64,000 bases of DNA, from NCBI GenBank assembly GCA_000310025.1, contig FN649749.1:2530912-2594911 (forward strand), given 5' to 3'. The stretch is from Ectocarpus siliculosus. Lineage: Eukaryota > Sar > Phaeophyceae > Ectocarpales > Ectocarpaceae. How positions within the stretch are numbered: position 1 is the first letter of the stretch; each line of letters begins with the position of its first letter. A model generated the notes under the pieces. It made no database searches and had not been told where the DNA came from. It saw only the letters and a program-made list of their open reading frames with translations. The position numbers were made by a program, and so were the translations under genes. Below, piece after piece: positions 23,004 to 45,621 of the stretch.

Positions 23004-24642
23004 CTACGCGGAGCGATCAGTATGCGGCTCGAGAGGGCCTTGTGGCCTCTTTGTAAACGGGGAAAGTTGGCTTAAGGTGTGTAACAACAATCTCGCATCC
23101 CACCGCAGGGCGGAAAGAACGACGGTGGTGCCGACGACAGAGAGGATGACCAGGCCAATAATTCCGGTGCTTTCTCGGACAAAATTATATATATGAGGCA
23201 CGATGTTCTTTGGCATACGATGGCATACGCTCACTGTCGGCACGCAATGACACACCATCGAGCAAACAACTATGTTGATTCGTAAACTCCAGCGGGTCTT
23301 CGCGGAAAACAGGCAACGGTGAAATGAAAAAAGGTCCTTGTCCACGTGACATGACCTCGAAACAAAGGGACAACCCCCCAAGGGCACCAAGTCACCTTGA
23401 AAAGCGCGCCGAGAAGAACTGGTTGCCCGTGGGTCGGAAGATGCGGACATCTAACGTGGCCCTTCCTCCTTTCATGGAACAAACCGTCCCCGAAGCAGCG
23501 GGAGCTTCAGAAGACTCGGCTGCCCACGCCCACGACCGTGCCCGGAACGCCGGCCCTCGCTCAAGCAGCCGACACACGGCTGCCGAAGTATCTGGGTTCT
23601 TCTTATTGGCCGGTAGGGCTGCTCCAACACAGCAGCTTGCGCCCTTGTCAAGTCCGTTGGCTGTGCCTTCGTCTGCGCCTGCTTGGAGGAGAATGCTTGC
23701 CGCAACGAGAGACTCGCAGGCAGCGGCGAGATGAAGCGCGGGGGTGCCGTCCGTGTGTCGGAGTCTGGCCCACTTCACCCGCTTCTGTTCTCCCTCAACG
23801 TCAAGAAGCATCTGGAGGATTCTCGGGAAGCGCTTCAGAATCGAGCGCCTTAACGCGTAAGACATCGCGAGCTCGCCTCCGACCGCCTGTACTCCTCGGT
23901 CAAGCAGGACGCGGACAACCTGCTCGTGGCCCAATTCCACGGCAATCAGAAGCGAGCCGATTCCGTTGGCGAACAGAGAGGGGTTGTCACGCGCCCCTGC
24001 AGACAGCAAACACGACACGGCGACCTCCATCCCCTCGGATGCAGCATAGCAGAGCGCGGTTACGCCCTTCTTGTTCGGCAAGTTCACCGTCGAAGGTGCC
24101 CGTGACAGGAGCAGTCCCAGCAAGTCGGGTGCATTGAAGGTCGCCGCGACATGCAACGCAGTCTCCCCTTTCAGGTCCGCTACCCTCGGATCAGCGCCTG
24201 CGTCGAACAATTCTCGCACCGCCGTCAAAACGTAATTTTTCGCGCGGAAATATTTCAGACACGTCATCATGAGGGGAGTGCAGCCCTTGCCGTCGGCGAG
24301 GTTGGGGTCGGCGCCAGCGAGCAGAAGAAGCCGGAGGGCGTCGAGGTTTTCGCCTGCTAATGCACCGTGCAACGGTGTGGTGCCCCCCTCGAACGGTAAG
24401 TTACCGGTGAAGCCATCCGCAAACTTGTCCAGGGAAGAAGTTCCGTCGAGATCTGCGCCATTGTCGATGAGAAGTTTAAGGATGTCTATTCGACCTCTGT
24501 TGGCGGCAAGAAAAAGGGGGGAAGTAGCTGCCTCGCTAGTACCATCGGCATTCGCGCCGGCTTTGAGCATTTCAATGGCGCCCTGAAGGCTCCCCTTTTC
24601 GACGTGGTGAAGAAGCCGGAGCTCTTTACTGTATTTGGTCAT
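23004..24642 (-). CDS. Ankyrin-repeat protein with C-terminal transmembrane segment
   Basis: Exons 24642-23396 and 23169-23004 join at phase 2 (TTTTCAAG/gtgact ... gagaaag/CACC) into 470 residues. From about residue 8 to 360 there are roughly nine ankyrin units. Clear helix-turn-helix cores are SPLFLAANRGRIDILKLLID, TTPLHGALAGENLDALRLLL, GETALHVAATFNAPDLLGLL, VTALCYAASEGMEVAVSCLL and TPALHLAAACESLVAASILL. The second exon adds a probable single membrane span (GIIGLVILSVVGTTVVLSAL) and a short basic tail, so the repeats should face the cytosol if it is tail-anchored. Ankyrin repeats bind partner proteins; no catalytic domain is present. The start ATG gives a charged N-terminal helix that leads straight into the first repeat. 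Open frames on the opposite strand are shadows of this GC-rich exon. Confidence 0.85.
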
Positions 24643-27600
24643 CGCGGCCCAGCCGTCCTTCGGAAAAACCGAAGACCTTGGTCAAAGCCTGCCGCACCAC
24701 CGTGCTTTAGTAGCAACCCGCAGCCCCGTGGTCTTCTCTCCGCCAGTTCCACTTCCGCCTGCAAGTGCGACAGTTCTGTATTGCCTCCCTTTCTTTTCTG
24801 CAGCACAAAAAGTCACCGGTCGGAGAGGGCCGTGTGGGGAAGGTCGATAGGTTGAAATGGCGTTTCGTCGAGGGGTCTTCAGGCTGAGCTTCATTCTTGT
24901 TATCGTGGTAACCGCCGCCGGTGAGAGGTCCTGTGGGCAGACGCCCCCCGACGCAATTACAACTTAACAGTACTGAATTCGTTGCTGATATCTCCTTGAA
25001 GTTCGACCTGTGGATCCGGCCATTCATATTAACTTCGAGTCTCGGGTTGCAGGCTACCAACAAAAAGCAACACCAAGAGCCGTACAACACCCGCAGACAA
25101 AAAAAGTGACAATGGGGTTTCCCGAGAAACAAAGGTACAACGCTGCCCACCAAGAGAATATAATCACTTCTCAGACTTGTAGGCTGAGTCGAACACAAAT
25201 CATGTAGGAGCAGAACTACAACTGGCACTCCTGGGTTGTCAATACTGATCGAAAATTGAACCGGTCTCGATACTATTGATCTCCGCTGCCCGTGGCTGCT
25301 TATCTCGGGGCAATGGGGTATTGCGCGTGAGTACATCCATCTTGGTTTTGGTAAATGACAGGTAGCCTCGGTGCCCTTCTCTCTCGCATTGATATAATAT
25401 ACTTGTACATACATTCGACTCCGAGCTGGCCCTTCCCGTCGAGGTGACCAACTGAGCAGACCTCCTTGCGTATGAACCCCCTCGAGTCTATCGAAAATCA
25501 CAGCGGCAGGACAGCTTGTGCAAGGCAGCTTTTGATGTGCCCTACGACAATTAGTTCGGGGAATTGAGTCTGTGACGACATGTAGGATTGTGAATGGTAA
25601 ATGACCAGAATGTGGACATTTCGGAGAGCAGCTGGTTCGTTCGGCAGCAGGGTTCCAGCAAGAGATTTGGGTGTACCAATGCGGAGGCCCGGTCCACCAT
25701 GGTTTGTGCCCCCGTTTTCTGTGGCTTTGCACCCGTCCCACTGGGTTTGTGCCATAGGGTGCTCCCGGCCCGCGCAGCTCTCAAGGGGCTCACTGGCCCT
25801 AGTCCCATCTACCCATCGCCACACAACTGCAAACCAGCGTAGCTTAACCACAGCGTATTCGCTGTTGTGCCGACCAACTCAAACTCTCGGTCTGGTTTGC
25901 TACAAAGCGGTTGAAGCCCGCCACCATTTTACTCCCAGAGTTCTGTGGACCTTCCCACTCCAACTCTGGGTTTGGGAGTGACGTCTGTGCACAATTCCGG
26001 TGTTTGTAGGAAACCGCCCTACAGTAGTGGTAGACACAGTGCTGCTGTAGCCGGAACGAGGTTTCGCCGCTTCTGCTGTTGCAAGTTTCGATATTTGCGG
26101 ACCGCAAAGAACACTCTGTCATGAATGCTTCAGTCGTGCAAACACCACTCGATACTAGCACCCATTCCCGGATAATGCGGGTGCAGCCTTCATATTCGAG
26201 AAATGCGATGGTGTATGTACTGGTATCTGGTCTTCCTGTGTACCCAACCGCTCCGATTTGCTCACATCAAGTCGTGGATGCCTTCAGTCTCCCAGAGTGA
26301 CAGTATGAAGTGTGGTGTGTGTGCGCGGCTCACGGGTGGGCTGGGGAGACAGGTGGCAGCAGTTTTGGCGGAGGACTCTATGGAGCTATGGAGCCATGAC
26401 ATCCGCGGAGTGCAGGTTGTGCACACATACCCATGCGGCAAAGAATGACACACGGAACCCCGATATCATGACGAATCATATGTGGTTGAACGATCTTTTT
26501 AGAAAGTAAACATACCCCCACAGAAAGACTTTTACGTGCATTCATTGTATGTATGATCACAAGATACCACCACACGCGCATATCACACGGCGTTTCCTTC
26601 CACACGATATCTTGAGAGCGGCGTTGGTACTGTTACCCTTCTTTCATCTCGCCAGAAACGTTTTGTATGTTGCGTGCTTCTTCGATGTTCTGCATGGCTC
26701 ATGCTGTGCAATCCCCGATCGGGTGGCTACCTTTAGGGGCGGCGGCGAGCAGTGCCGAAGCCTCTTCCGAGCGCGGCAGTGTTCAGATTGCACAGTGCAC
26801 AATTGAGTGCCGAAGAGCAGTGCAGCATGGGGATGACAGCTCGTGTGGGTATTGTTAGCGCTGGCCAAGCCCAAACACGCAAGCACTTCGACATCTGACA
26901 CGTCTGACGTCATGTTTTGTGATGGTGCACTCAAGTTTGCAAGACTGATGCGCACAAGCCCAATGGAAAAAAAAAAAAACTCTCGCATTCTATGTATACA
27001 AGTAGGCCAAGCATCCTCAAGGCCACTTCAGCCATATTGCCGCCGTCTCTCTCAGCGATGCAAGTGCATATGTAGTTGGCGGAGTCGCGGAGGGCAAGCA
27101 ATTCCGAGGAACGGCACCGGTTGTTATTTTGTTGCCACAGGGTACGAAGGAGGATTGGTATGAGCACGTCGTCGTCCCTGATCGCGTCGGACTTCGACTA
27201 TCGTCGCCGGTAAAGCCGAGAAATAGTCTTAAAAAATCGGATTCCCATATACATATGTATCTGGAAAGCAAGATCCCTCGGCAGCAAACCATACGTGGGG
27301 GCCTCAGATGACGGGTGAAGACCGTGCCCCAGTGGCGCTTGTGGATGTCAACGTGCATTTGCTACGATATTTTAGTACGGGTCTTGAATAAAATGAGCGC
27401 ACCAGCTTCAAGTGCGTTCGAATGTGTTCTAGTCGACAATAGCAGTTCCTTGACTTCCAGGAACCTCGAAAAAACTGCCAGCTACACTTATTGCTACTAT
27501 CACCAACATGTTGCGATACAAACTCCCGGACCACCGAGGGTGAAAACCCCTTCCGCTGAAGACAAGCGTCGTCTCTACAGCCAGAAAAACGCGAGGTATC

Positions 27601-31049: not shown

Positions 31050-34000
31050 CTAGCCGTTAGGACCTATTTCCAGTAGCTCCTCCTCTGTATTCTCCAAGGT
31101 AAGATACGCATTTCCGTTGCCAATGGATGGAAAACCCTGGCTCATGTACATGAATGACCTGCCTTGAAACGACCACTCGCGAAAAGTATCACATTGTGGA
31201 AGAAAGTGATCCAGAGATTCGAACGACGGATATGGGTGAAACGCGATAAAGGGAGCATAGACCGAGACCGGAAGCCAAGTTATTCAAAGAACATTGCATA
31301 CAAGAAAATTACAACGCTGCAACCTAGATCAAGGACGAAGAGGCTCTCCATAAACTCCCATGAAGTCAGCAGCGTTTCAACCGACCAGGCCAACCTCCGC
31401 TGAGTCCTCGGGATGTGAAGGGAGAAGCATTGAACATAGGGAAAACCTGCACGTTCCCAATCGTTGTTGAAAGTTCCCGGAAAACCTCGGTCTGGAAAAA
31501 AATGTCGAACGCCCGAAAAATATCTGCATGTCTCACAGTTCGAGGCACCCTGCTGAGGAGGAAATCCCCCTGCCTCCGGTTGGCCCACGTGGAGAGGTCC
31601 AGCCTCTTGGTAGCCCGCGCTCTGGAAACCTGTAAACGGATTCTTTCCACTGGGTCCATCGCCCGACCGCCTGCCCTAGGCCCGGCGCCTCCTTTGCCCC
31701 CTTTGATGGCCGCCCTACAGGCGAAGGACGACGTACGGAGTGGATATCGCAGCGAATTCCGCGCGCAACAACGATTGGTGTTGCAAAACAAGTCTGCTTT
31801 TCGATGACAATGAATCGACCGGCCAAGAAGTAGCCTGAGTCCCGCGGGCAATCGAGTTGATGGAGGTAGCGGTAATTCCACTCGCGTCCCTTACTCGCTG
31901 AGTTCGCCCAGCTTGTGGAGGCTAGCTCAATCGTCCCCGCGTGATTTGTCACCGGTGAATATCCAAAGGCATTCCCTCACACAATGTTCGACGACTTGTA
32001 CGCGTGTTACCCTTGTCTACTTCATACCAGTAGAAGTCTGGCCCCCATTTTCTACCTCCAAGTGCAATAGAATAACCAGGTTCTGAGCACGAAATATCCT
32101 TCGTCACCTCTTCAAGCCGCTGTCTGCGGTAAGAGCTCTCTTTGGCGGGTTGTCACGCATCGCTTTCAGGGTCCGCCTGACCTCCTCCTGCTGCGCGAGG
32201 CGCTCCTGCATGGCGTTTGTGGTGCAGGTGGTACGTCGCCGAACAAGGGAGGCTGGTTGCGGGGGGCAAATCGACATATCTTCTTGTTTCAAGAGCGGGG
32301 CGAAGTTGGAATCACAATCAGGGGAAGCCATAACCAGTGGAGTGTGAAATCAAGGCTACCACAGGAGGAAATTTTCCAAACAAAAAGGAAATGCTGCAAA
32401 GTTCTACATTGCCACTGTAGTTGAAGGTTCTTCCGGAGGGGAAAGCGGAATTCACACACGGCCACCTCCACAATAAGGGGTGAAGAAACACCATGATCTA
32501 CTCTGCTTGCGGTTGGGAGCATAAGATAGTTGTTTGGCGTTCACGCTTTTGTGTGAGCACATTGATCGGAATGGCTCCCACCATAGTGCCCATGTGCGAA
32601 TATTCCTCGTACGTTGGAGCTGAAACTGGTGCACGACACATGATTGCTGTAGGGAAAATGTCTTCCCGGAAAGGATTTCACTCATTTCTTGATGGGTCTG
32701 GGAGATTACTCATGGCCCCAGAAATCTTCCAAACTCGGTAATCATAGAGAGTTAATATACTCGAATTCACTACAACAAACAATGGTGCCAACATTCCGCG
32801 GTGGTCGGGAAAAATCGTTGAGCGATCCAGTTGTGATGATGCTGGTCACTATCAATCGCACCTTGAGAGCAGCCCGGTACTCGCTGAGCCTCGCCGCCGA
32901 ATCGCTCTGCGCCGCCAGCCTTTTGGCGACGGCGGAAATTTTGAAGAAAGTGGTGAGAAACTCCGGCACTTCGATCTGCACCGGCGGCGCGAACGCTGCA
33001 CGGGTAGAACAGTCCAGGCGGGGGCAGTGGCGACGAAAAAAAGAGTGAAAGATGATCATCAAAGGTATCTCCGAGAGGTTTCCTGCTGGGCGTCTCGGGC
33101 AGGTCCAGCCAAGGGCTATTTGCGGCCTGAATTCGGCTTCGAAACGTACGAGAGACCATGCCGCGCCGCGCAATGAGCGGTTTGGTCTAGACGAAAGAGC
33201 TAGAAAATGCGGCTCTACATGACGCCATAGGCACACCGTACCTTTGTGGAATGTCACAGTGGCATTTACTGTCCGAATCTTCCATCACGACGGCCTTTAT
33301 TCAGGGTGAAGAGTAATAAATGAATGGTTGATAATCAGCACTTCAACTACCACCAAATTCACTTTGGGTGGGTGCACACGCTCTCAACGCCAGCTTTTCT
33401 TGAGGCTGCTTGACGAGGACTGTCGTCCGTGACAAATCAAAGCTTGGCTTCCTTGCACTTTGAAACATTGTGTGATGCACAGACGAGTTGCAGCCGCCGG
33501 GGGTGATCTAAATAGGCTACACGGTCCAGTCCAGCCTGAAGCCAATGAGATACCTCCGTCGCACAAGTCTGCGTCGGCCGCGTCCCCTCCTACCCCGAAG
33601 AGATGCGCCACGGCACCTAGCTGGGACGGAGACAGGCGGATGTCAAACGTTCGCTGGAGGGCGGCCTTCAGCTCCGTCGGTGTCATACACTTCACCTAGG
33701 GAATCCACGGGACGTAGACAGGGACGAAGGATATGAGGCGCTACTACGTAGCCGCAATAGCATTTGTTTTCGGTGTTTTCCCCAGCAGAGTTGAAAACAG
33801 CAAAGGCGTTCGATTCACTACGTATCCACTTCGTATTCACTTCATATTCACTTCTTTTTCACTTCGAATGCTCACTTCGAATACTCACTCTGATATTTTT
33901 ATTTCACTTTAATTTTTCACTTCACTTCGTATGACCAAGTAGATTGGGCAAGTATACCCGGAAAGTTGTACTTTCTTTGTATTACGAATGAACGATGTGG

Positions 34001-37000
34001 TCCGGGCCGGAATCTTGGTGCCATGGCGTATCAATGCTTTCCGTTCCCCAGAAAATATGGCCGCTATTTTCTGAGGCAACGTATCCGCATTTTTCACCGT
34101 TTTGGCCTACGCAGGTAAATAGGTACAGGCCGTGTCTGATGGTCGGGCGTCGGCTCTGTTTGGAATCTCACGACACTTCATCTGAGGGGTTTGGGGTTGT
34201 TCCGGGAGCAAAGGACGTGTCATCTGTGCCTTGTACCCGTTGTGACGGTCAATTACCTCCCAAGCCTTGAGCCCGCCCGGACCTAGTTGGCGCCTGTCGT
34301 ATCGAGCCGCCGCCTCAATGAGGGAGTCTAGCGTGTCATCCAGGTCCTGCAGAACGCCATGCGAACAGGATGATCGTCAGCCTGTGGGTTTAGTCGTGTC
34401 CACTTGTTATTCACTAGCCTGCAGCAACAATGCACCGTAGACGTTGAACTGCAGCGACTGCAGCTACTCAAAAGCAATACACACATTGGACAACAGACTA
34501 CTTGCGTGTAACAAGAGGGTCACATGACAAAGGAACACGCATCCCGAAACCACTAGACTCGGCGTTTCGGCATGCAGATAATTGAAATGCAGTGCGACCG
34601 TACGATCAGCATCGGATGAGCCGTGTTGGGTACCGCAAATCACAACACATGACTTGCAGGAGTGCGCGAATCAGGCCCTGTGGATACCAACGTGGATTTA
34701 CCACACCTGACCGAAAACGAGCGTGTACATTTAGGCAAGTTTGGGATGGTATTTCCTGCCCGTGAATGGGTCTTAGCATGGCGTGGAACGGGCTCAGTTT
34801 GAGTAACCGGCAACAGCACATATTGAGCGCAGCGCTTGCTACCGTCCCAACTGAGGAGGCGCGCTTGCCTAACCTCGCTGTGCACCATCCAGCATTGTTT
34901 GGGACCAATGAACACACGGTTCTAGGAAACCCAGGATAAATCCACCGGTGAAGCTTACCTTCGTCGAGCCATCCGATAAAATATGATGAAGAATGTATCG
35001 ATGATTTCCACATTATTCGTCACTCTGAATCTGCGAACTGCTTGCTTGCCTTCTCGGTATACGGGGCGAGGGCGTCCTGAAGTCTTCTCCTTTCCGCCTC
35101 GAGGTAGCGCCTGTTCTCCTCCTGTTCCGTCCGCTTCGCCCTGGCCGCCTCTTCTTCCCTCCGTCTTTGGTCCCGCCACAAGAGTTTGGACGAGCATCAC
35201 AGCGGTCGGCACGGCATATTTCCCCGAACGAAAAATCAGTGGACCAAAAGAATACAGGCATGCGGCGAGAGCAATGCACAGGAGACCGAAAATGATGTCA
35301 GCGTATAGAACCAGCAGATCGTTAAACTCATACTTCGGATTGTGGATGTACCACTTCTTCTCGTCCCAGTGCATGCGGTTCACCTTTCACTCCTTCATAG
35401 AGTGGGTCTCTTCGACAAAGAGTGGGTCTCTTCGACAAAGAGTGGGGCTCTTCGACAAAGAGTGGGTCTCTTCGACATAGAGTGGGCCTTTTCGACAACA
35501 TAAACCTTTGCTTACGCCCGTTCAATCCACAAGAGCCACGTTGGCCATCTGTCCTTATCCTATGTCCTGTCTACTGCTGTCACTGGATGGGCGATGTAAG
35601 ACTTCAGCACGAAGAGTTTCTCCCGACAAGGCCCGGCCCATGCTCCCCCGGCGAACCGCAGAACGCCTTACGGAGAACACAATGAAGTCAACCACGCAAC
35701 TTCGACCCGTCTACAAGGCCACGGGTCAACCGACGCTCGTTCCTGCGAGTTACTGTACCTCTGGAGCGCTCGGTTTCGGCTCTCGAAGCCAACCCGGAAA
35801 AACGTCAGGAGGAACTCGGCACAATTAACCGTCCCGTCGCCGTCCTTGTCGAACTCCTGCATCATCGCTCCAAGCTCACTAGGGCTAAGCTTGAGGCCGA
35901 ACACCTTATGCAAGGGTTTGGCATTGACCGAAGTGCGATCGTCGAGTTCACACCACGAACAATGTGCATCAACGACGAAAACTGCAGTGGAGAAACGGTT
36001 AGCCTTGTGTACACTTGTACCTCCTCCAATATTGGAGGCTGTGCACTGTTGGATCCCATGAACAGAGGACGCCAGCAGGAATACCAAACGCTAGGCGTGA
36101 ATTGATCTAGGTAGCTGCCTTTCTGAAACGGGTGATTCACGTATTCAACAACCTAAGTAATTGCTGAAGCCTGAAGGCATCGAAATAGTCCACCGACCGA
36201 CCAAGGGAATGGAAGCAATCTGTTTGTTTGGAGTCTCTTGCACACACACCCGCCTACGAAACCTACTGGCTCACGTGAACCTCCAAATGCAGGATTCATA
36301 GTTGGCGGTTGACATATTCTTCTACCGGTTCATCGATTCTACCTATTCTGGTCATTGGGTGCCCTGGTAAATGGGCCAATGCCCCGGTCTTCGTTAGGAT
36401 ACCTGAAGCAGGTCACGCATGTGTATCGAAGTCTTCATTGCTGTTTGAGGCATTCATTTGATTCGAACTTGAAGCTGATCATATCATATCCTTCTTCAAA
36501 ACGAACGATAGATATTGTTGTACACATTCGTGAATGCCGTGATACCATAATATATATTTCACGGCGAACGGGGTAATTCCCACACTGTTTACGAATGTAA
36601 AATTCAGCTCTGTGAGAAACATCTCTCTTACCCTTTTTAGCTGCTCCTTGAAGATGTGTGGTGGCATCAAGGCCCCCTCGAAGCCATCGAGCCCCAGACA
36701 GCTCGGGTGATTCTTGTCGTACCTGCCGCGCGAGTACGCGCGTTTCGGGACAAGAATACTGGTTGTTCAGAAAAAACATGTCCTTCGGACGAGGGCGGCG
36801 GATGCCCCGCCCGTGGATTTGGGTGTGGAAGAAATAATTCATCGGGGTTCTGGGGGACAAGCCGTGTAATTGTCGCAACACCTGACGAATCTTTCTTCGC
36901 TCAAGCCAACCAACTTAGCATACTACACAAGTGGTAGAAAGGAGTCTTTGCGGTTCGGGATGCTTCAGCCACCTGGATGCTGCGTCAGCAATCTTGGCCA

Positions 37001-40000
37001 TCGCAGACTCCTTGTCGTGCTCATCGAAGCTTTCGCTGACCTTAAGCGCCGCCTTGCGCTCAATCTCCCGCTCCTTTCGGTTCATGAACGTTCGCAGCCC
37101 ACCGTTGTTACATTTCATAAAGCAATACGCAGACGGGAATGATACAGCGGCGATTGTGATCGCAGCAGTCGGAACGGCGGCAGCAGCAGCAGAAGCAGCA
37201 GCAGAGCGTGTGTGGAACTTAAGCTTCGCATTCCCACAATGTCAGCCCTTCGAAACATTTCAGTAGTGATGAACGCTGCCATTCTGTTCTAACAAGAAAC
37301 AAATGAGGGGCAATTATTGTGTCTGATATGAGGTTCTAAATATCTCCTCAGCAGCGCTTCCCGTCGTTGCACCTGTTTGAGGCAACGTTAGAGTTAGGGT
37401 AGTGCGATCAACATCTGCTGTATTTTCACGATAAAACTACCCGCTTTGGGGACGGCTGCCGGTGTGGGCTAGCTCACTTTCTCGGCCGCCTCCTCCTCTA
37501 CCCTCCTCGCCATCTTCCGGTCCCTGGTTCTCCTCCTGGTGCTGGTTTCAGATTTCACCTCAAACCCTGCCTCAATGGGCCGCCCAGAGAGAAAAATCAA
37601 GGAGTGGTTGTAGACTCAACGTGGGATGTCAACGCGAATACGATGTGTTGTTGGGGCGGCAAGGGTGCTTTGCAAACCAAGGTCAAATATTGCGTGTGGA
37701 AATATGTTTTCGAGAAGTTCTACCCGCTCCAGACGGTAACTATGTTGCTGTCCATTCCCCCTTTCCCTCCAACCTCTCCACCTTCCGGAAACATGTGAAC
37801 TTTCTCACCAAGCCTGAAAAAAGTGCGGAGGAACTCCGGGCAGCTGATCGACCCATCGCCGTCTTTGTCGAAGGCGTGGATGGCAGCGCCCAGCTCAGGT
37901 GGTGTCAACTGTATCCCGAACGCCTGTTTGGGGAGTGGGAGAGAGAGGGGCTCGCGTGATTACTTCTTGACAACCTTGACCGCTCCTCTCTCGCGTGCGG
38001 GCCGCTCAATCGTAGGGCGCACCCCATGTCAGCATGAGCTACGGTCAGAATCCCGAACGCGGGGGGGTGTATGGGGTGGTGACATGTACCGATGGATAAT
38101 AGTACACTCCAACTTCACGCAATATGATGAGCTCGCTCACCCTCTTGAGCTGTTCACGAAACACATGAGGCTCCATTTGCGCCCCATCAAAGGCATCCAG
38201 AGACACGGCGCTGGGGTGGTTCTTGTCGTACCTGGAAGAAAACGTTCGAGCGCCGCACAGAAACAAAGGATTGAGAGGAGATGCGAAAACCGCCGACTTC
38301 TCCTGTACCACGGAATTTGCGGACATCTTCGTGGTTTCCTACGTGAAACGACCATGTCGGAACGAACAATGGCGTGCCCTCATTATTTTCCCACTCATGC
38401 CAACGGGCGTAGTATCATGAAAGAAGTCTGTCCGCCGTGTCTTGTCCGGAGTTATGTCAAGGGCGGCGACGTGCGCGAAGTATCGTAGGTGACATCATAC
38501 TCAACCCCCACTCGCTGTTTCCTGGACAAAATTTCTTGCCCGGCTATTCCGTAGTGCAAACGGCGGTGCCAAGGCCACGCGGCATGTTTTCGGAAAGCTC
38601 TTAACCCACAAGTCGTCTCTAAATGGTCGGCAAGACATTTTCCTAAGCCTTCTTTCATGGTACACCTTCAACGCTGGAGTATACGTGTCCAACAGGGTCC
38701 TTTCTGATACCACATGGCGAAACTTCCCCCAAGATGGGCATCGGAACACCCCTCTTTGTCGATGAATTCCCGCGAGGAATTGCTGAGGAGGGCGGGTCGC
38801 CGGGAGTGCGTACCTGGCTGCGGCCTTGGTTATCTTGGCCATCGCCGACTGGTAGTGCCGCTCAGAATATGACCTGTTTATTTTCAGAGCGTTCTTTCTC
38901 TCCTCCTGCCGTCGCTTCCGCGCTTCTTCCTCCGCCAGAAGGGCCTCCCGTTTCTTGGCGAAGCAGGAACAAGTCACAGGAATAGCAGTCGCACAGTCTG
39001 ATGATTTACTTGACAGATTCCGCAATGGCGTTATTGAATGATATACAATGTCCCTGCGCGGGAAACACTCGGTTGAAACAACGTTTCAATCCCTCCACCC
39101 GCGAGGTATCACCGCAAGGGCAGGTACATACCCGCACTCTCTTACCGCATCAGCTTTTCGTTTCTTCTTTGTCCTCCTGTTCCTCTCGTCAAACCCCATC
39201 TTGAAGAACATCTTCGTAAACTCCACGACGTCCACAGTTCCATCGTCATCCTTGTCAAACCGATGCATCACGCCCCCGAGCTCCTGCAACAAGCAACATG
39301 CAGGAAGCGAAGGCACCACTTGTCTGGGGTTGCTATTCAAACACGGGGCTGAAGTTATCCGACTTGGCGAAAGCAAAGGGCACACCATGGCATTCGATGT
39401 ATCGCCCCTTTGTCCTCGTACATACTTGGGGGCGCGCACACTCTACCTCCTGCAGCAACCCACAAAACCAGACATAACGTATCAAATCATGCAACCGCAG
39501 TGTTCTCCTCTGAGTAACTGCTCTTGAGATGGGGTAGCGTTTTCCAAGACCCCCTTGCCACGGCCGTGCATCCCCTCAAGGAGCTCTATAAACGGAACAA
39601 TAACATCTCAGGCAGAACGTGTTGTGGCAACGACGAACGGGGTTGAATCGATCATCAGACACCATGCCGTCAAACCTCTCGCGGCAACAAATACCCCATG
39701 CCCGGCTTAGACGTGCAAAGATATCTAGGGGTCGTTTAACACTGATCGTACCCTTGTCGAGCCGGGTTTCACCCGGATAAGCCAACCACCGAGGTCTATT
39801 ATTAGTGCGAACGGCAAGCCAATCAAACACCACTTACCGCAGGCGTGAGCTTGATGTTGAAGACCTTCCTCAGCTGTTCCCGGAACACATGAGGCGGCAT
39901 GTTGTGCCCCTGAAACAACGCAACGAGTAGAAGACCGCGGCAGTAGCGGTGGCGAAAGCAACATAGAGTCAAAGGACAGAACAGGTCTTTCGTTCGGTGT

Positions 40001-43000
40001 CACATGAATAGCTATCGCGAGACAAGCAACTCGACTCTACGCATTCCGTGTTGTTGCAGTACGTTCCACTAGACGGGTGACGAGGTGCTGATACAAGAGT
40101 TTCCCTACCTCCAGCACGCGCGTCCCCATTCTCTCTGGACATACAGAAACGCTGCCTATCTTTCTTGCCTTCTCGTATATTGCGTGCTCGCTTGCACAGG
40201 TGCTGTAGCGATTTAAAGTGTGTTGGATGAACGTACCTGAAACGCTCCTAGGCCAAGGGAAGCAGGACCTGTGGCGTCGTAGGCTACGGCGGCCTCCACC
40301 AGCTTGGCCAGACCACTCGCTTGTTCCTCGCTAGTATATTCGTAGTCCACCTAAGCGTTTGTGTGTACCCCGGGAAACAAGCTTGTGTTTTTGACTTTGT
40401 TTCTGCATGAGGACTTCTTCGCAAGCATCATGCACGATATGTGCGGGGGGCTAGCTTTGTCGGCGGAAACACCGACTACAAACACTGTCGTCTTCGGACC
40501 AAAGCCTATTAGAGATGCTTTAGTTGTAGCTGTAATCCAAGTACGATCTGCTAATTCTACTCCAGGTTTATGTTGGAGAGATGGGATTCGTTCTGAATTT
40601 TCCTCTGCCCTTAACTGTATTGCACCTCTTCGGGCTTGGCTCTCTACGAAATTTCACTGTCTCGTGTTGGGCTAGCTTCTGAAGGCGAAATATATCGTCA
40701 AAACGATTGTAGAAGTCTAGCCGAGAACAATGTCAAGAACAGCATCAACAACGGTATGGGGTCTGGGCAGCGGTTTACGTGTGATGATATTGTGCAAGTA
40801 CATGTGCTCATTGCTGTCCTCCAACACTCGCTCGAAGGCTATCGTCGATATTGTACTAGGCGCCGACCTGTTGCAGCACGCCCACACCTTTTGCCTAGCT
40901 CGTTCCTCTGCCTCCGCCCGCCTAGCCTCCGTTTCCGCCTCTTCCTTCTCCTTCCGCTTCCGCTCACCCTCTCGCCGAATATGGAGGCGCCTGGACCGCT
41001 CCTGTCCAACCAAGCAAACGACGTGGCCCGAACGTAACGAACGAATGTGAGACCTAAAGCTTTGTCACACGAGGGCGTGACCCAATCTCATGGACCCTCA
41101 ATCACGAGGGCAACAATGTCGGGTTCTTATGGACGCTAATAAGTACGGCAATGCAAATCACTGCTGCTTTCCTGCTGGGAGGTTTCCTACAGCCCTCCAC
41201 CACACACACAAATAGCCGGATTCTGCCTCGCTAACCTGAAACCCTGTCATGAAAAACTTGAGCAGGAACTCTGCGCAGTTGACGGAGCCGTCGTGATCCT
41301 TGTCAAAACTCGCCATGACCGCCGCGAGCTGCGGAGGAGATAGCTTGATGTTGAAAACCCTGCACAAATATTGCAGCAGTGCCAGCTGAAGCATCGGAAC
41401 GGGATCATAGCATGGGTTTGATTCCGAAGCCCCTTAACTACCGTCCTAGTTCGCTGAAAGTAAGACCGATATCGAAGCAGGTGTGGGGGCAATCATGATA
41501 TCAACGCGAGCATTCTTTTGTGCTCGAAGAAAGGCTTGCCAAGGAAAGAAGGTTCAGAACGCATAAAACGAGTGCTGATGGACCGGTACAAGCCTCTGAT
41601 GTCTAGCGCGAGGGGAGGTGCGTGACAACCGACCCAACCCGGCAGCTCTCCATACCACCGGTGTCCTAACTTCATCCTCCAAGACCGTGCGTATAGCATA
41701 CTCCCCCCCGAAGCCACTCCGTTGCTCGACCCACGCGAAGAACAACGGGAGGAAAAATTCTACCACCATTTGTGTTCCCAGGGTCTGGGGTTTGAAATCA
41801 CCCGTGAGAGATGTGCTCAAAAGCCGAGCACGATACGGTCTGCTTGGCAGGATTGCATGATAGGGTCGAACCTGCGAAGTTGCTCCCTGAAAACTAGGGG
41901 AGTCATGGTGGCGCCTTCGAAGGCGTCGAGGCTAATAGACGCCGGGGAGGTCTTGTCATAAGCCACCGCTGCCTCAGTAATCAGTGCCATGGCGCTAGCC
42001 TCGTCCTCGGGCCCTGCGCATTGTATTATTAATAGCATTTCGTGGCGTCGCTTAGTGCCGTCCTTACAGCTCTTATTATCTCGGTTGTGTCTCTCTCCAT
42101 GAGCTCCTTTGAAATTCGGCTCTGGCTGTGCTCCCCTTTCTGTCCGTTGCTGTGTTTCCTGTCTCATGGTTTCGTGCTTTCGCGTATTCTAGCAGACGGT
42201 TTTTCAGATTTTCAATGAGCGACTTCGTTTTCCGGCACGTTCGACAGCGTGAAGTACCAAACTCCGGGCGTGCGAGAATTACCATGACGTCACCTCCCCA
42301 GATACCAACTTGTTTGCGGGTGAACATATATAAAGGCACCTTCGGCACCTCATGCCTTTAAAACTCTGCGAGACTCACGGGCCGGCGAAACTCCTCTTTC
42401 CAGATGCCACTCCCGAGACAACTTGTCCCTTCTTCGGCATGATATCTACGAATGATTCCGCTCAAAGCCTAAGCCTTGTTACCAAGAACTGCCTCCATGT
42501 TAAATCTTGTGGTGAAGCAGTTCTGCTTCACAAAGAAGCGTTGCCAATGCCTATCCTGGGACAATTCAATGTTGGTTATTTTTTCTTGTGAACAGAATGT
42601 TTGTGAGTCCAGACTTCCCTCAATATTGACCCTAATGTTGCTGGTGCTTTGGACAGCTGTGAAGGGTGGTAAGTTCGCACTGAATCCCGTAACGTCTTCA
42701 AAAGCACATGCCAAAGTTCTCACCCCATTTCACATCGGGGTGGAGGTGGTTCAATGCCTCTGCAGGGTCGGGTGGGTTCAAGAGCTCCGCCTCCTCGAGC
42801 GCCTTTTGCTCCATGTGCTTGCGTTCAAACTCCAGGCGCTCTACCCTTCGACGGTCCCGTTCAGCCTGTCCCATCTACAGTTGGTTGTGGCAAGATCAAC
42901 GGCAGCGCGAAAAGTATGCGCAAAATCGTCATGGGCCAGCAGCTGGTGGTTGAACATCGGGACCGCGCGCAGCAGCTTAAATCGTCACCTACAGCATGTG

Positions 43001-45621
43001 ACTGGGCTCAGTCACGTTAGCAAAGGAAACATTGTGGACTTTCCGTTGACCACAATTGATGATATGGACGGCAAGACCTCAAGGCAACCAGATATGTTCC
43101 TTCTGTAAACCTAATTAGACTACAGACCAGACTGCTGCCGTGTAATGTTGGATCCTGTGTACGGCTGTAGTCGACGTACCACCTATGCCGACGGGAGAGA
43201 AGCTGATGAATGTACGAACTTCTTTCTGGCGCATGCACCTGTAGGAACGAACTGCTGAACCCGTCTTGCATAAACATACCACAGGTTTACGCCCAGAGGA
43301 GCTCTTCTAAGTGGTTCCGGATCGGAACGCTTTCGTTTAAGAATACATTGACCACCAGCAGCGGTAAGCTGACGTTTGCATGTGACAAATCATTCAACTG
43401 CGGATTGAAATGTTATCAATCGCGCCCGCCCGGTTGTCGACCGCCTGGACACATCTGGGTACTCCCGGCCCCGAACCTTCCTTTCCATAGCTCATGACCG
43501 TTTGAAGAGTGGCTCTGTCTCAGCACACTTGCCATGATATGTAGTGAACAGCGCCACACCGGGTCGGATTGCAGTCTAAACGAGATCTAGAACTGCGGAG
43601 GAAGATGTTTGCAACTCACCTCATTTGCTAACAAAACGCCCGGTTGTTGAGCACCGTGGCCACATCAGGATGCTCCGGATATAGCACCTCCTCTTGTATA
43701 GCCTGTGACCGCTCTAACAGTCGCTCGGCCTCAAGGTACTTGCCCTGGCATGCAGTACGACTGAACACCAGGGCACGTACGCTGAGGCTGAGCCACTGTA
43801 CGAGCGGTCANNNNNNNNNNNNNNNNNNNNNNNNNNNNNNNNNNNNNNNNNNNNNNNNNNNNNNNNNNNNNNNNNNNNNNNNNNNNNNNNNNNNNNNNNN
43901 NNNNNNNNNNNNNNNNNNNNNNNNNNNNNNNNNNNNNNNNNNNNNGGAGCATCCTGATGTGGGCACGGTCCTCAACAACCGGGCGTTGTTGCTGGCTAAT
44001 CAGGTGAGTTGCAGACAATTTGAGCACCGTGGCCACATCAGGATGCTCCGGACCTAGCACCTTCTCGTGTATGGCCTGTGACCGCTCGAACAGTTGCTCG
44101 GCCTCAAGGTACTTTCCCTTGCATGCAGTACGACTGAACACCAGGGCAAGTACGCTGAGGCTGAGCCACTGTACGGTCACAGGCCATACAAGAGAAGGTG
44201 CTAGGTCCGGAGCATCCTGATATGGCCACGGTCCTCATTAACCGGGCGTTGTTATGTCTAATCAGGTGCGTTGCAGCAATCTTCCTCCGCAGTTCTAGAT
44301 TTCGTTTTGACTGCAATCCGACCGGGTGTGGCGCTGTTCACCACATTTCATGGCAAGGGTACAGAGGCAGACCTACTCTTCAAACGGTCATGAGATATTG
44401 GAAGGAAGGTTCGGGGCCGGGAGTACCCAGATGTGTCCAGGCGGTCGACAACCGGGCGGGCGCGGTAACGTTTCAATCCGCACTTGTATATCCCACTTTG
44501 ATTTAACCATGAGTACAGCTCAGCCACTTGTAGCTTGTAGTGAAATAGAGAGGCAAGGGGGAAACCGTAACGCCACCACCCTAACCCTAATACCCCGCCC
44601 GAAATTCCACCGATGCCGTATCCAATAACATGTTTGCTATTATATATAAACCTGCGTGGGGTCCTCTGTCTATGCATCGAAGGTTTTAGCCCAATAGTGT
44701 AGAGGGCAACATGACAGACACATTCAGGGAGGATGGGGTGCTGTTTAGGGCGACGAATATACACCGCTGTCCAAGCCATCGCAAGCAAGCATAGAAAACG
44801 CTGCTCTCTACATATGTATGCCGGGGTTGAGTGAGAGGCCGTGTGTCGTGGAACCGCCAACAACAACGCGGTTTTGAGTTCTGAGTTCTGACAGAGAGGG
44901 CTGGGTTACCCGAGCACGCCCACCACCTATTCATTCTTCCAAGCACGCCCACAACCTATTCTTTCTTCCAAGTACACATAACTTAGTTAGTTGTTTGCCA
45001 GACAACTGCCGGCTAGTCGTTCGTCAACAACTAGTGCACGATCCCGGAAGGTTGATGGCTACAGGCCAGTAGACTACTGCTGTAGTCTAGAAAGCCATAC
45101 CGACACTGCAGCGACACCAAGCGGAAAAATACTTCAAAACACTACTGTTTTGACTGCTGGTCCGTTGGCACCTGAATAAAGTGAATGACGAAGGTGTTTC
45201 CATCGAGTTCCATGCCACCGTCGGGCACAAAGTGCGCAAAGACGGCCGAGAGCTCGGGCTCTGTTAGTCTGATGTGGAACAAGCGTCGAAGCATGTCTCG
45301 GAGCTCCGGGGGAGTCAGCCCTTCTCCAGCAAACCCCTTCTTCAGGATGCGGTCCTTGTCCGGATGGTATCGTACTGACGCCTCCACTAGCTTCGAAAGG
45401 CCTGATTGCAGCGGTGTTCTAGGTGGTTCTGCGGGAGAAGCCTTGCGCTTCTTAGGGGGAGAGCTAAGCCTGACGGCGTACTTGCCTCGTGCAACATTCT
45501 TGCCTTCCCTGGTCTTGTTAGGTTTGGGAGCATCTCGTTCGATTACTGTTTTTCCGCTGGGGAAGACGATCTCGGCCGCATCGTCCTCGTCTGCTGCCTC
45601 TATAGTGGGCGACTCCGCCAT
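31050..45621 (-). CDS. Six-module EF-hand / charged-helix protein, 22 exons (~990 residues)
   Basis: Exons (5' to 3'): 45621-45172, 42874-42724, 42013-41872, 41359-41236, 41001-40888, 40350-40237, 39909-39838, 39283-39146, 38953-38814, 38231-38141, 37923-37809, 37566-37478, 37073-36973, 36722-36632, 35904-35759, 35164-35050, 34346-34257, 33695-33554, 32995-32862, 32205-32108, 31714-31486 and 31136-31050; all phases agree. The protein repeats one module six times: a helix (SAMAKITKAAARYDKNHPS), a linker (SLDAFEGAxMxPHVFREQLKR), an EF-hand (VFGLKLSPSELG ... FDKDGDGTVNCAEFLLTFFR), then a Glu/Arg/Lys-rich helix. Canonical calcium loops start at residues 267, 399, 531 and 663, exactly 132 apart; loops at ~132 and ~795 are degenerate. 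The N-terminal ~70 residues are basic and disordered. It probably is a calcium-sensing scaffold; no enzyme domain, signal or membrane segment is seen. I know no name for this architecture. Exon 16 uses a GC donor (AAG/gcaagc). The junction of exons 18 and 19 is the least certain. Confidence 0.82.
33818..33930. repeat. Degenerate ttcact-rich short tandem repeat
   Basis: A run of ~12-base units of the form (c/t)acttcgtattc, ending in ttcacttcacttcgtatg. It is AT-richer than its surroundings and lies in intron 17 of the EF-hand gene. Confidence 0.6.
35400..35499. repeat. 20-bp minisatellite, five copies
   Basis: The unit gagtgggtctcttcgacaaa is repeated head to tail five times with no spacer and only a few changes. 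It lies in intron 15 of the EF-hand gene. It is not a CRISPR array, because no unique spacers separate the units. Confidence 0.9.
40440..40760. other. AT-rich segment in an EF-hand gene intron, origin unknown
   Basis: Intron 5 contains a stretch that is AT-richer than the flanks (for example gatgctttagttgtagctgt and aattctactccaggtttatg) and is open on both strands. The plus frame reads PIRDALVVAVIQVRSANS; the minus frame reads KPGVELADRTWITATTKASL. I recognise neither. It may be an organelle-derived insertion or a retroelement fragment. It contains no splice-consistent exon for the host gene. Confidence 0.35.
43395..44470. pseudogene. Inverted cluster of kinesin-light-chain-like TPR exon fragments around an assembly gap
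   Basis: Within intron 1 of the EF-hand gene at least six pieces of one TPR unit occur in alternating orientation. Minus strand: 43800-43625 (GKYLEAERLLERSQAIQEEV then LYPEHPDVATVLNNRA, broken by a stop), a worn copy at ~43540-43395, and 44180-44040 (GKYLEAEQLFERSQAIHEKV then LGPEHPDVATVL). Plus strand: 43946-44003 (EHPDVGTVLNNRALLLANQ followed by gtgagt), 44175-44266 (RSQAIQEKVLGPEHPDMATV then LINRALLCLI followed by gtgcgt) and a worn copy at ~44350-44470. The left and right sides form a large imperfect palindrome. The TPR consensus and donor sites suggest exons of an NB-ARC/TPR or kinesin-light-chain-like gene. Here they are scattered, stop-containing and unlinked to an N-terminal domain. 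Confidence 0.78.
43811..43945. other. Assembly gap (135 N) inside the TPR palindrome
   Basis: A run of undetermined bases interrupts the centre of the inverted repeat, as expected where a palindrome defeats cloning or assembly. Both flanks are TPR-exon sequence, so the missing bases probably are too. Confidence 0.95.

Follow-up and report, generated by a model that had tools for sequence, protein, structure and literature searches.

Tetrahymena CFAP115 is a 110 kDa protein with four tandem EF-hand pair domains and a 32-nm repeat, while Chlamydomonas FAP115 has one EF-hand pair domain, a mass of 26 kDa, and an 8-nm repeat (PMC10105768). A different account gives FAP115 two lobes, with two EF-hands in each, bridging protofilaments A02 and A03; without the protein, defects arise and spread along the axoneme (PMC8742875). 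In STPG1A, five motifs are separated by ∼40-residue stretches acting as 8-nm spacers across the 48-nm repeat, so that repeated units spaced to successive tubulin dimers over 48 nm have already been published (PMC10105768); each GFG repeat spans a tubulin pair (PMC10973386). Calcium-binding proteins are reported to have joined doublets independently in different lineages (PMC7617938), and those of the Chlamydomonas doublet were suggested to serve the calcium control of algal motility (PMC8595878).

Here, we describe a gene in a 64,000-nucleotide stretch of Ectocarpus siliculosus DNA (the window; contig FN649749.1, positions 2,530,912 to 2,594,911) that appears to encode six EF-hand modules in series. 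With CFAP115/FAP115, the predicted protein shares tandem EF-hand units, a fixed pitch, and a series in which longer forms arise by unit multiplication (one unit in Chlamydomonas, four in Tetrahymena; PMC10105768). However, the FAP115 unit is ∼26 kDa (PMC10105768), as against ∼15 kDa for the module here, and it is described as two lobes (PMC8742875) or one pair domain (PMC10105768), whereas our module has one canonical loop and possibly a degenerate hand. The module also contains a charged linker of ∼42 residues, and no sequence relation to CFAP115/FAP115 was found outside the calcium loop, within the limited reach of our profile. Since no sequence relation was found within that reach and the unit is smaller, we set membership aside and did not file the protein as a CFAP115. 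The likeness to STPG1A would lie in a repeated motif, each copy of which meets one tubulin dimer, but STPG1A and the other repeat microtubule inner proteins (with PG-rich and GFG repeats) use short motifs and not EF-hands. The mammalian inner-junction protein EFCAB6 resembles our protein in holding several EF-hand motifs in one chain (PMC8595878); a profile built without the calcium loop found no credible chain in a library stated to include all PDB entries.

Gene model and pitch of the modules

The gene model joins 19 spliced exons on the minus strand, from 45621 to 32862, into an open frame of 853 residues; the six-module product has a computed mass of 96 kDa, with the 3' end open. Splice sites were read from the sequence and joined by script. 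Exon 1 (45172..45621; this and all following exons are on the minus strand) contains the start codon, an N-terminal extension, and the intronless core of module 1 with its degenerate EF loop, and exon 2 (42724..42874) supplies the module 1 linker. Module 2 is divided among exon 3 (first part; 41872..42013), exon 4 (canonical EF loop at residue 266; 41236..41359), and exon 5 (charged linker; 40888..41001). Module 3 begins with exon 6 (first part; 40237..40350) and exon 7 (the predicted pre-loop helix; 39838..39909), continues with exon 8 (canonical EF loop at residue 398 and start of the charged linker; 39146..39283), and ends in exon 9 (38814..38953), which holds the remaining linker and the start of module 4. 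Exon 10 (38141..38231) encodes the middle of module 4, exon 11 (37809..37923) its canonical EF loop at residue 530, and exon 12 (37478..37566) its charged linker, which ends in exon 13 (36973..37073) together with the start of module 5. The middle of module 5 lies in exon 14 (36632..36722), its canonical EF loop (residue 662) in exon 15 (35759..35904), and its charged linker in exon 16 (35050..35164). Module 6 comprises exon 17 (first part; 34257..34346), exon 18 (degenerate loop at residue 794; 33554..33695), and exon 19 (32862..32995), which also enters the next segment. These assignments follow the spliced model, joined by loop sequence for exons 4, 8, 11, 15, and 18, by linker analysis for exons 5 and 12, by splice sites for exon 15, and by the splice-site scan described below for exons 9, 13, and 16.

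The donors are GT in 17 of the 18 introns and GC in the remaining one (intron 16, at the end of exon 16), and all 18 acceptors are AG. The donor of intron 15, upstream of exon 16, is weak, and AAG acceptors precede exons 9, 13, 15, and 16 (introns 8, 12, 14, and 15). In our alignments, one of them of 11 modules with several incomplete, module homology crosses the exon junctions, including that of the long intron 1. As a gene model built from the sequence, the repeat is real and well supported. Two tentative exons, proposed from splice sites and open frame, would add 92 codons: exon 20 (32205-32108), which continues the charged segment, and exon 21 (31714-31537), a basic C-terminal segment. The sequence-only reading had counted 22 exons with an end at 31050; neither that count nor that end was confirmed, and neither the last exon nor the stop codon could be placed.

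Several introns hold repeats of other kinds. By eye, intron 1 contains several same-strand tetratricopeptide-repeat-like fragments (43628-44240), a region interrupted by a 135-base run of N (43811-43945). A 20-base unit occurs in four tandem copies and a partial fifth in intron 15 (35395-35486), and imperfect short repeats of the GAAGTGAATAC type were seen by eye in intron 17 (33800-33930).

In the 19-exon model, the loops start at residues 131, 266, 398, 530, 662, and 794. The spacing is 135 residues between modules 1 and 2 and 132 residues at each of the four following steps, which reproduces the period reported earlier. Comparing the protein with itself gave a mean BLOSUM62 score of 1.273 at offset 132 and 0.958 at offset 264, far above the maximum of −0.40 that 200 shuffles reached over all offsets between 20 and 299. 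We chose the splice sites knowing both the module homology and the earlier claim, so the gene model is no blind check of the period. We scanned for in-frame alternative sites at seven of the 18 introns, all in or beside linkers (introns 4, 5, 8, 12, 13, 15, and 16). Near alternatives alter the length by −1 at intron 4, −3 at intron 8, −1 or −3 at intron 12, and −2 or −3 at intron 15, and larger ones exist, such as −7 and +12 for intron 13 or −5 and −11 for intron 16. The exactness of 132 thus leans in part on splice choices, and the pitch is fairly stated as 132, give or take about 3 residues in most spacings. The spacing of module 2 to module 3 is the firmest, as it involves CAG and TAG acceptors only.

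Anatomy of one module

Canonical ligand positions are present in the loops of modules 2-5 and absent in modules 1 and 6, in agreement with the earlier observation that only the outer modules had lost them. A segment conserved ahead of the canonical hand is, on inspection of the consensus, patterned like a degenerate first hand. Each module would then probably start with an EF-hand pair whose first member is degenerate; a charged, probably helical linker follows. What had been read as one EF-hand unit per module is probably such a pair. In searches with the whole 853-residue protein, the Pfam pair models aligned best onto the second hand of the module. The 132-residue module has a mass of 15.2 kDa.

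We then compared the two parts of the module among modules 2-5 (six pairs). The EF part (86 residues) is 49-64% identical, and the linker (46 residues) 26-39%; mean linker identity is 0.30, against 0.135 (SD 0.019) for shuffled linkers. MAFFT placed no internal gap within these linkers. With gapless linkers at 26-39% identity beside an EF part at 49-64%, the linkers have conserved their length more than their sequence. Even if the protein is not flagellar, it offers a clear case of this kind.

Charge was analyzed in five linkers (modules 1-5), each trimmed to 42 residues. Charged residues make up 55-64% of four of them, none of which has more than one proline or glycine, and 45% of the module 1 linker, which has three. 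Opposite charges are favored at i+3 (z = 2.36) and i+4 (z = 2.21) and disfavored at i+1 (z = −2.25), as judged over eight lags with 2,000 shuffles. The pattern modestly resembles that of a charged helix, although these statistics are weak, and the module 1 linker, which holds prolines, may not be helical throughout.

Relatives within and beyond the genome

Searching the E. siliculosus genome with module 5 returned 19 matches, of which 11 belong to this gene, two to a locus on C12, one to C19, and five to weaker others (C12:3181066, C484, C62, C481, and C10; four of these five overlap generic EF-hand matches). With the last C12 module as query, all 10 matches at E up to 1 fell within the three family loci, and tblastn with the whole protein hit several exons in each of the C12 and C19 loci. 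Both are multi-module EF-hand genes, which we spliced by eye: the C12 paralog (L001, 2229-6608) has at least three modules at a pitch of 131, and the C19 paralog (L002, 4613-2243, minus strand) at least two at a pitch of 126. Each of these pitches is one complete spacing with splice sites chosen by eye; a small exon sought in the C12 locus was not found, so the first C12 spacing was left out. A stop codon follows soon after the last module of the C19 gene. Judged by eye, some loop positions in both paralogs do not fit the calcium consensus, and GC-AG introns with GCAAGC donors occur in two family members, at exon 16 of our gene (35050) and at the third exon of L002.

The presence of the module in two further loci at spacings of 131 and 126 defines a gene family of this genome. 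Two introns occur at identical place and phase in modules 4 and 5; another is common to modules 3 and 6, again exactly, and has a counterpart within one residue in the C12 paralog. The shared places and phases suggest that modules were duplicated together with their introns, partly before the genes separated.

The six-module protein belongs, by its sequence, to the EF-hand superfamily. Its canonical loops resemble those of the calmodulin-type families (PF00036, PF13499, and PF13833), and five Pfam models (EF-hand_1, _5, _6, _7, and _8) scored over their cut-offs with the whole 853 residues, at most two stretches per model being individually significant. EF-hand_1 reached 71.2 bits (cut-off 25.4) with one such stretch. 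However, the generic loop region alone matches, and long charged linkers lie between the units here. Calmodulin also has its four hands in about 148 residues, whereas the four canonical loops of our protein spread across ∼400. Pfam gave no named family beyond EF-hand for the whole protein, and NCBIfam gave no match for a 223-residue part covering modules 2-3. An MpAgo_N-like match scored below the Pfam cut-off and was discarded.

PDB searches with queries that included the loop gave 231, 284, and 277 matches; the best 60 of each were all calmodulins or calmodulin fusions, and FAP115 was absent from these best 60. A loop-free profile of the six modules, searched against 177,635 PDB sequences, had no match at E ≤ 1; at E ≤ 10 it matched three chains, all unrelated, so that no solved axonemal component is known as kin. 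In a control with filters off and E-values scaled to that library, the same profile recovered a C12 piece (1.4e-17), a C19 piece (6e-9), and a short C12 piece (0.013). The best single paralog modules scored 2.4e-8, 0.0044, and 0.024, and the single C19 modules 0.0044 and 0.016. The profile recognizes paralogs, but it could overlook a relative that has diverged further than C19. A profile search of the module had been proposed as a check in the sequence-only reading, and it has now turned up no credible PDB relative within this limited reach.

None of the pattern matches in viral contigs (239 and 6) or in prokaryote contigs (115) was a relative, as expected for a eukaryote gene. In the literature passages searched, including those of PMC4415241 and PMC3652789, we found no description of this protein; the main text of an oomycete flagellar paper (PMC3471859) has "EF-hand" and "FAP115" zero times and "calmodulin" once. 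The claim that no named family has this architecture therefore holds for Pfam, for the PDB matches listed, and for the loop-free profile, but a comparable architecture had already been published for CFAP115 (PMC10105768). We could not match this small gene family to any named one, and it appears to be a calcium-binding-type repeat family for which no name was found in Pfam.

A proposed rod of fixed pitch and its alternatives

Among several readings, the likeliest, to which we give a probability of about 0.4, is a pitch-locked EF-hand rod that would work like CFAP115/FAP115 and lie along a filament with a regular repeat, the doublet microtubule of the flagellum being the most likely one. Charged α-helices of near-constant length would separate the six EF-hand modules and so present binding faces at a fixed pitch. 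The best candidate for the filament would be the doublet microtubule of swimming reproductive cells, on which each module would contact a single tubulin dimer of about 8 nm, the constant helix setting a distance of about one dimer between successive EF-hand units. The canonical loop in each of the four central modules is predicted to bind calcium, while the two outer modules would probably be calcium-free caps or contacts to neighbors.

The dimensions are compatible with this arrangement. At 0.15 nm per residue, a helix of 42 residues is 6.3 nm long, and an EF-hand pair measures 2.5-3 nm; together they would put the module at 8-9 nm and six modules at ∼48 nm. We count in favor of the pitch-locked rod that the pitch is kept without gaps in diverged linkers and is near-equal in the paralogs. 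The charge pattern of the linkers and the published parallels, FAP115/CFAP115 (PMC10105768, PMC8742875) and the independent recruitment of calcium-binding proteins to doublets (PMC7617938), also speak for it. By its EsV-1-7 repeats the genome looks like that of a brown alga, and these algae produce spores and gametes with flagella. The genome has six matches to the DM10 domain (RIB72/EFHC-type), three of them neighbors on C2, one of those three with an internal stop. These matches suggest that axonemal inner-protein machinery is present; RIB72 is the neighbor of FAP115 in the A-tubule lumen. Against the rod, one paralog has a pitch of 126 where our gene has 132, and with at least three and at least two modules found, the paralogs do not show the six of our gene. 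No PDB chain was recognizable as a relative outside the calcium loop; the exact 132 is in part splice-dependent, prolines in the module 1 linker may keep it from being helical throughout, and the statistics on charge are weak.

A more specific version, which we hold to be rather unlikely, is a stramenopile axonemal ruler in which six modules of ∼8 nm would span exactly one 48-nm luminal doublet repeat, with the calcium-free end modules joining head to tail. If true, the idea of Tetrahymena CFAP115 (four units, 32 nm) would have evolved independently and been matched to the 48-nm period. Maps have so far left unexplained how the doublet repeats of 48 nm on the inside and 96 nm on the outside are set (PMC10105768). 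A protein whose units, counted at one tubulin length each, add up to 48 nm would be a ruler open to direct test.

The alternative that survives best, though we consider it somewhat unlikely, is a soluble cytoplasmic calcium buffer or sensor scaffold. Its modules would be beads that recruit partners, and the even linkers would result from tandem duplication of intron-bearing units and not from constraint. The introns shared in place and phase by modules 4 and 5 (two), and by modules 3 and 6 (one, within one residue in C12), indicate that duplication with introns did occur, and we count this for the scaffold. Duplication by itself, however, fits less well with linkers that have drifted to 26-39% identity yet stayed gapless, and with separate genes that hold the pitch within 6 residues.

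We think it improbable that the protein forms a calcium-driven contractile or elastic fiber of the rootlet or basal body, in which the charged helix would be the in-cis target of the EF-hand and calcium would fold the modules and shorten the protein, in line with the calcium-responsive spring suggested in the sequence-only reading. Canonical loops in four of six modules and a charged linker adjoining each EF core would suit such a fiber. Calmodulin targets, however, have hydrophobic anchors, unlike strongly charged sequences, and four of the five linkers here are strongly charged with few such anchors; moreover, a spring needs no fixed pitch.

That the protein is a six-unit, diverged ortholog of CFAP115/FAP115, and hence a known microtubule inner protein, seems to us very doubtful. 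The series of one, four, and here six tandem EF-hand units would accommodate it, the single EF-hand pair domain of the Chlamydomonas protein (PMC10105768) is close to the module here, and a profile that scores single C19 modules at only 0.0044 and 0.016 has limited reach. Yet a 26 kDa unit (PMC10105768) of two two-hand lobes (PMC8742875) contrasts with a 15 kDa module, and the loop-free profile matched no PDB chain at E ≤ 1 and just three, all unrelated, up to E = 10.

It is highly improbable that the model is mis-joined from two or more genes, or that the exons of module 1 or 6 belong to other genes: intron 1 is 2297 bases long with the tetratricopeptide-like fragments inside it, and the gene, known from sequence alone, has an open 3' end, but module homology continues past the intron junctions, and none of the 18 interrupts the open frame.

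Two further repeat types occur in this genome. EsV-1-7 repeats (PF19114), which mark brown algae, are abundant, with 880 candidates and all 150 of the 150 scored lying over the cut-off. Elsewhere in the window, the minus strand has a 429-codon open frame at 23392-24681 with repeats that look ankyrin-like by eye.
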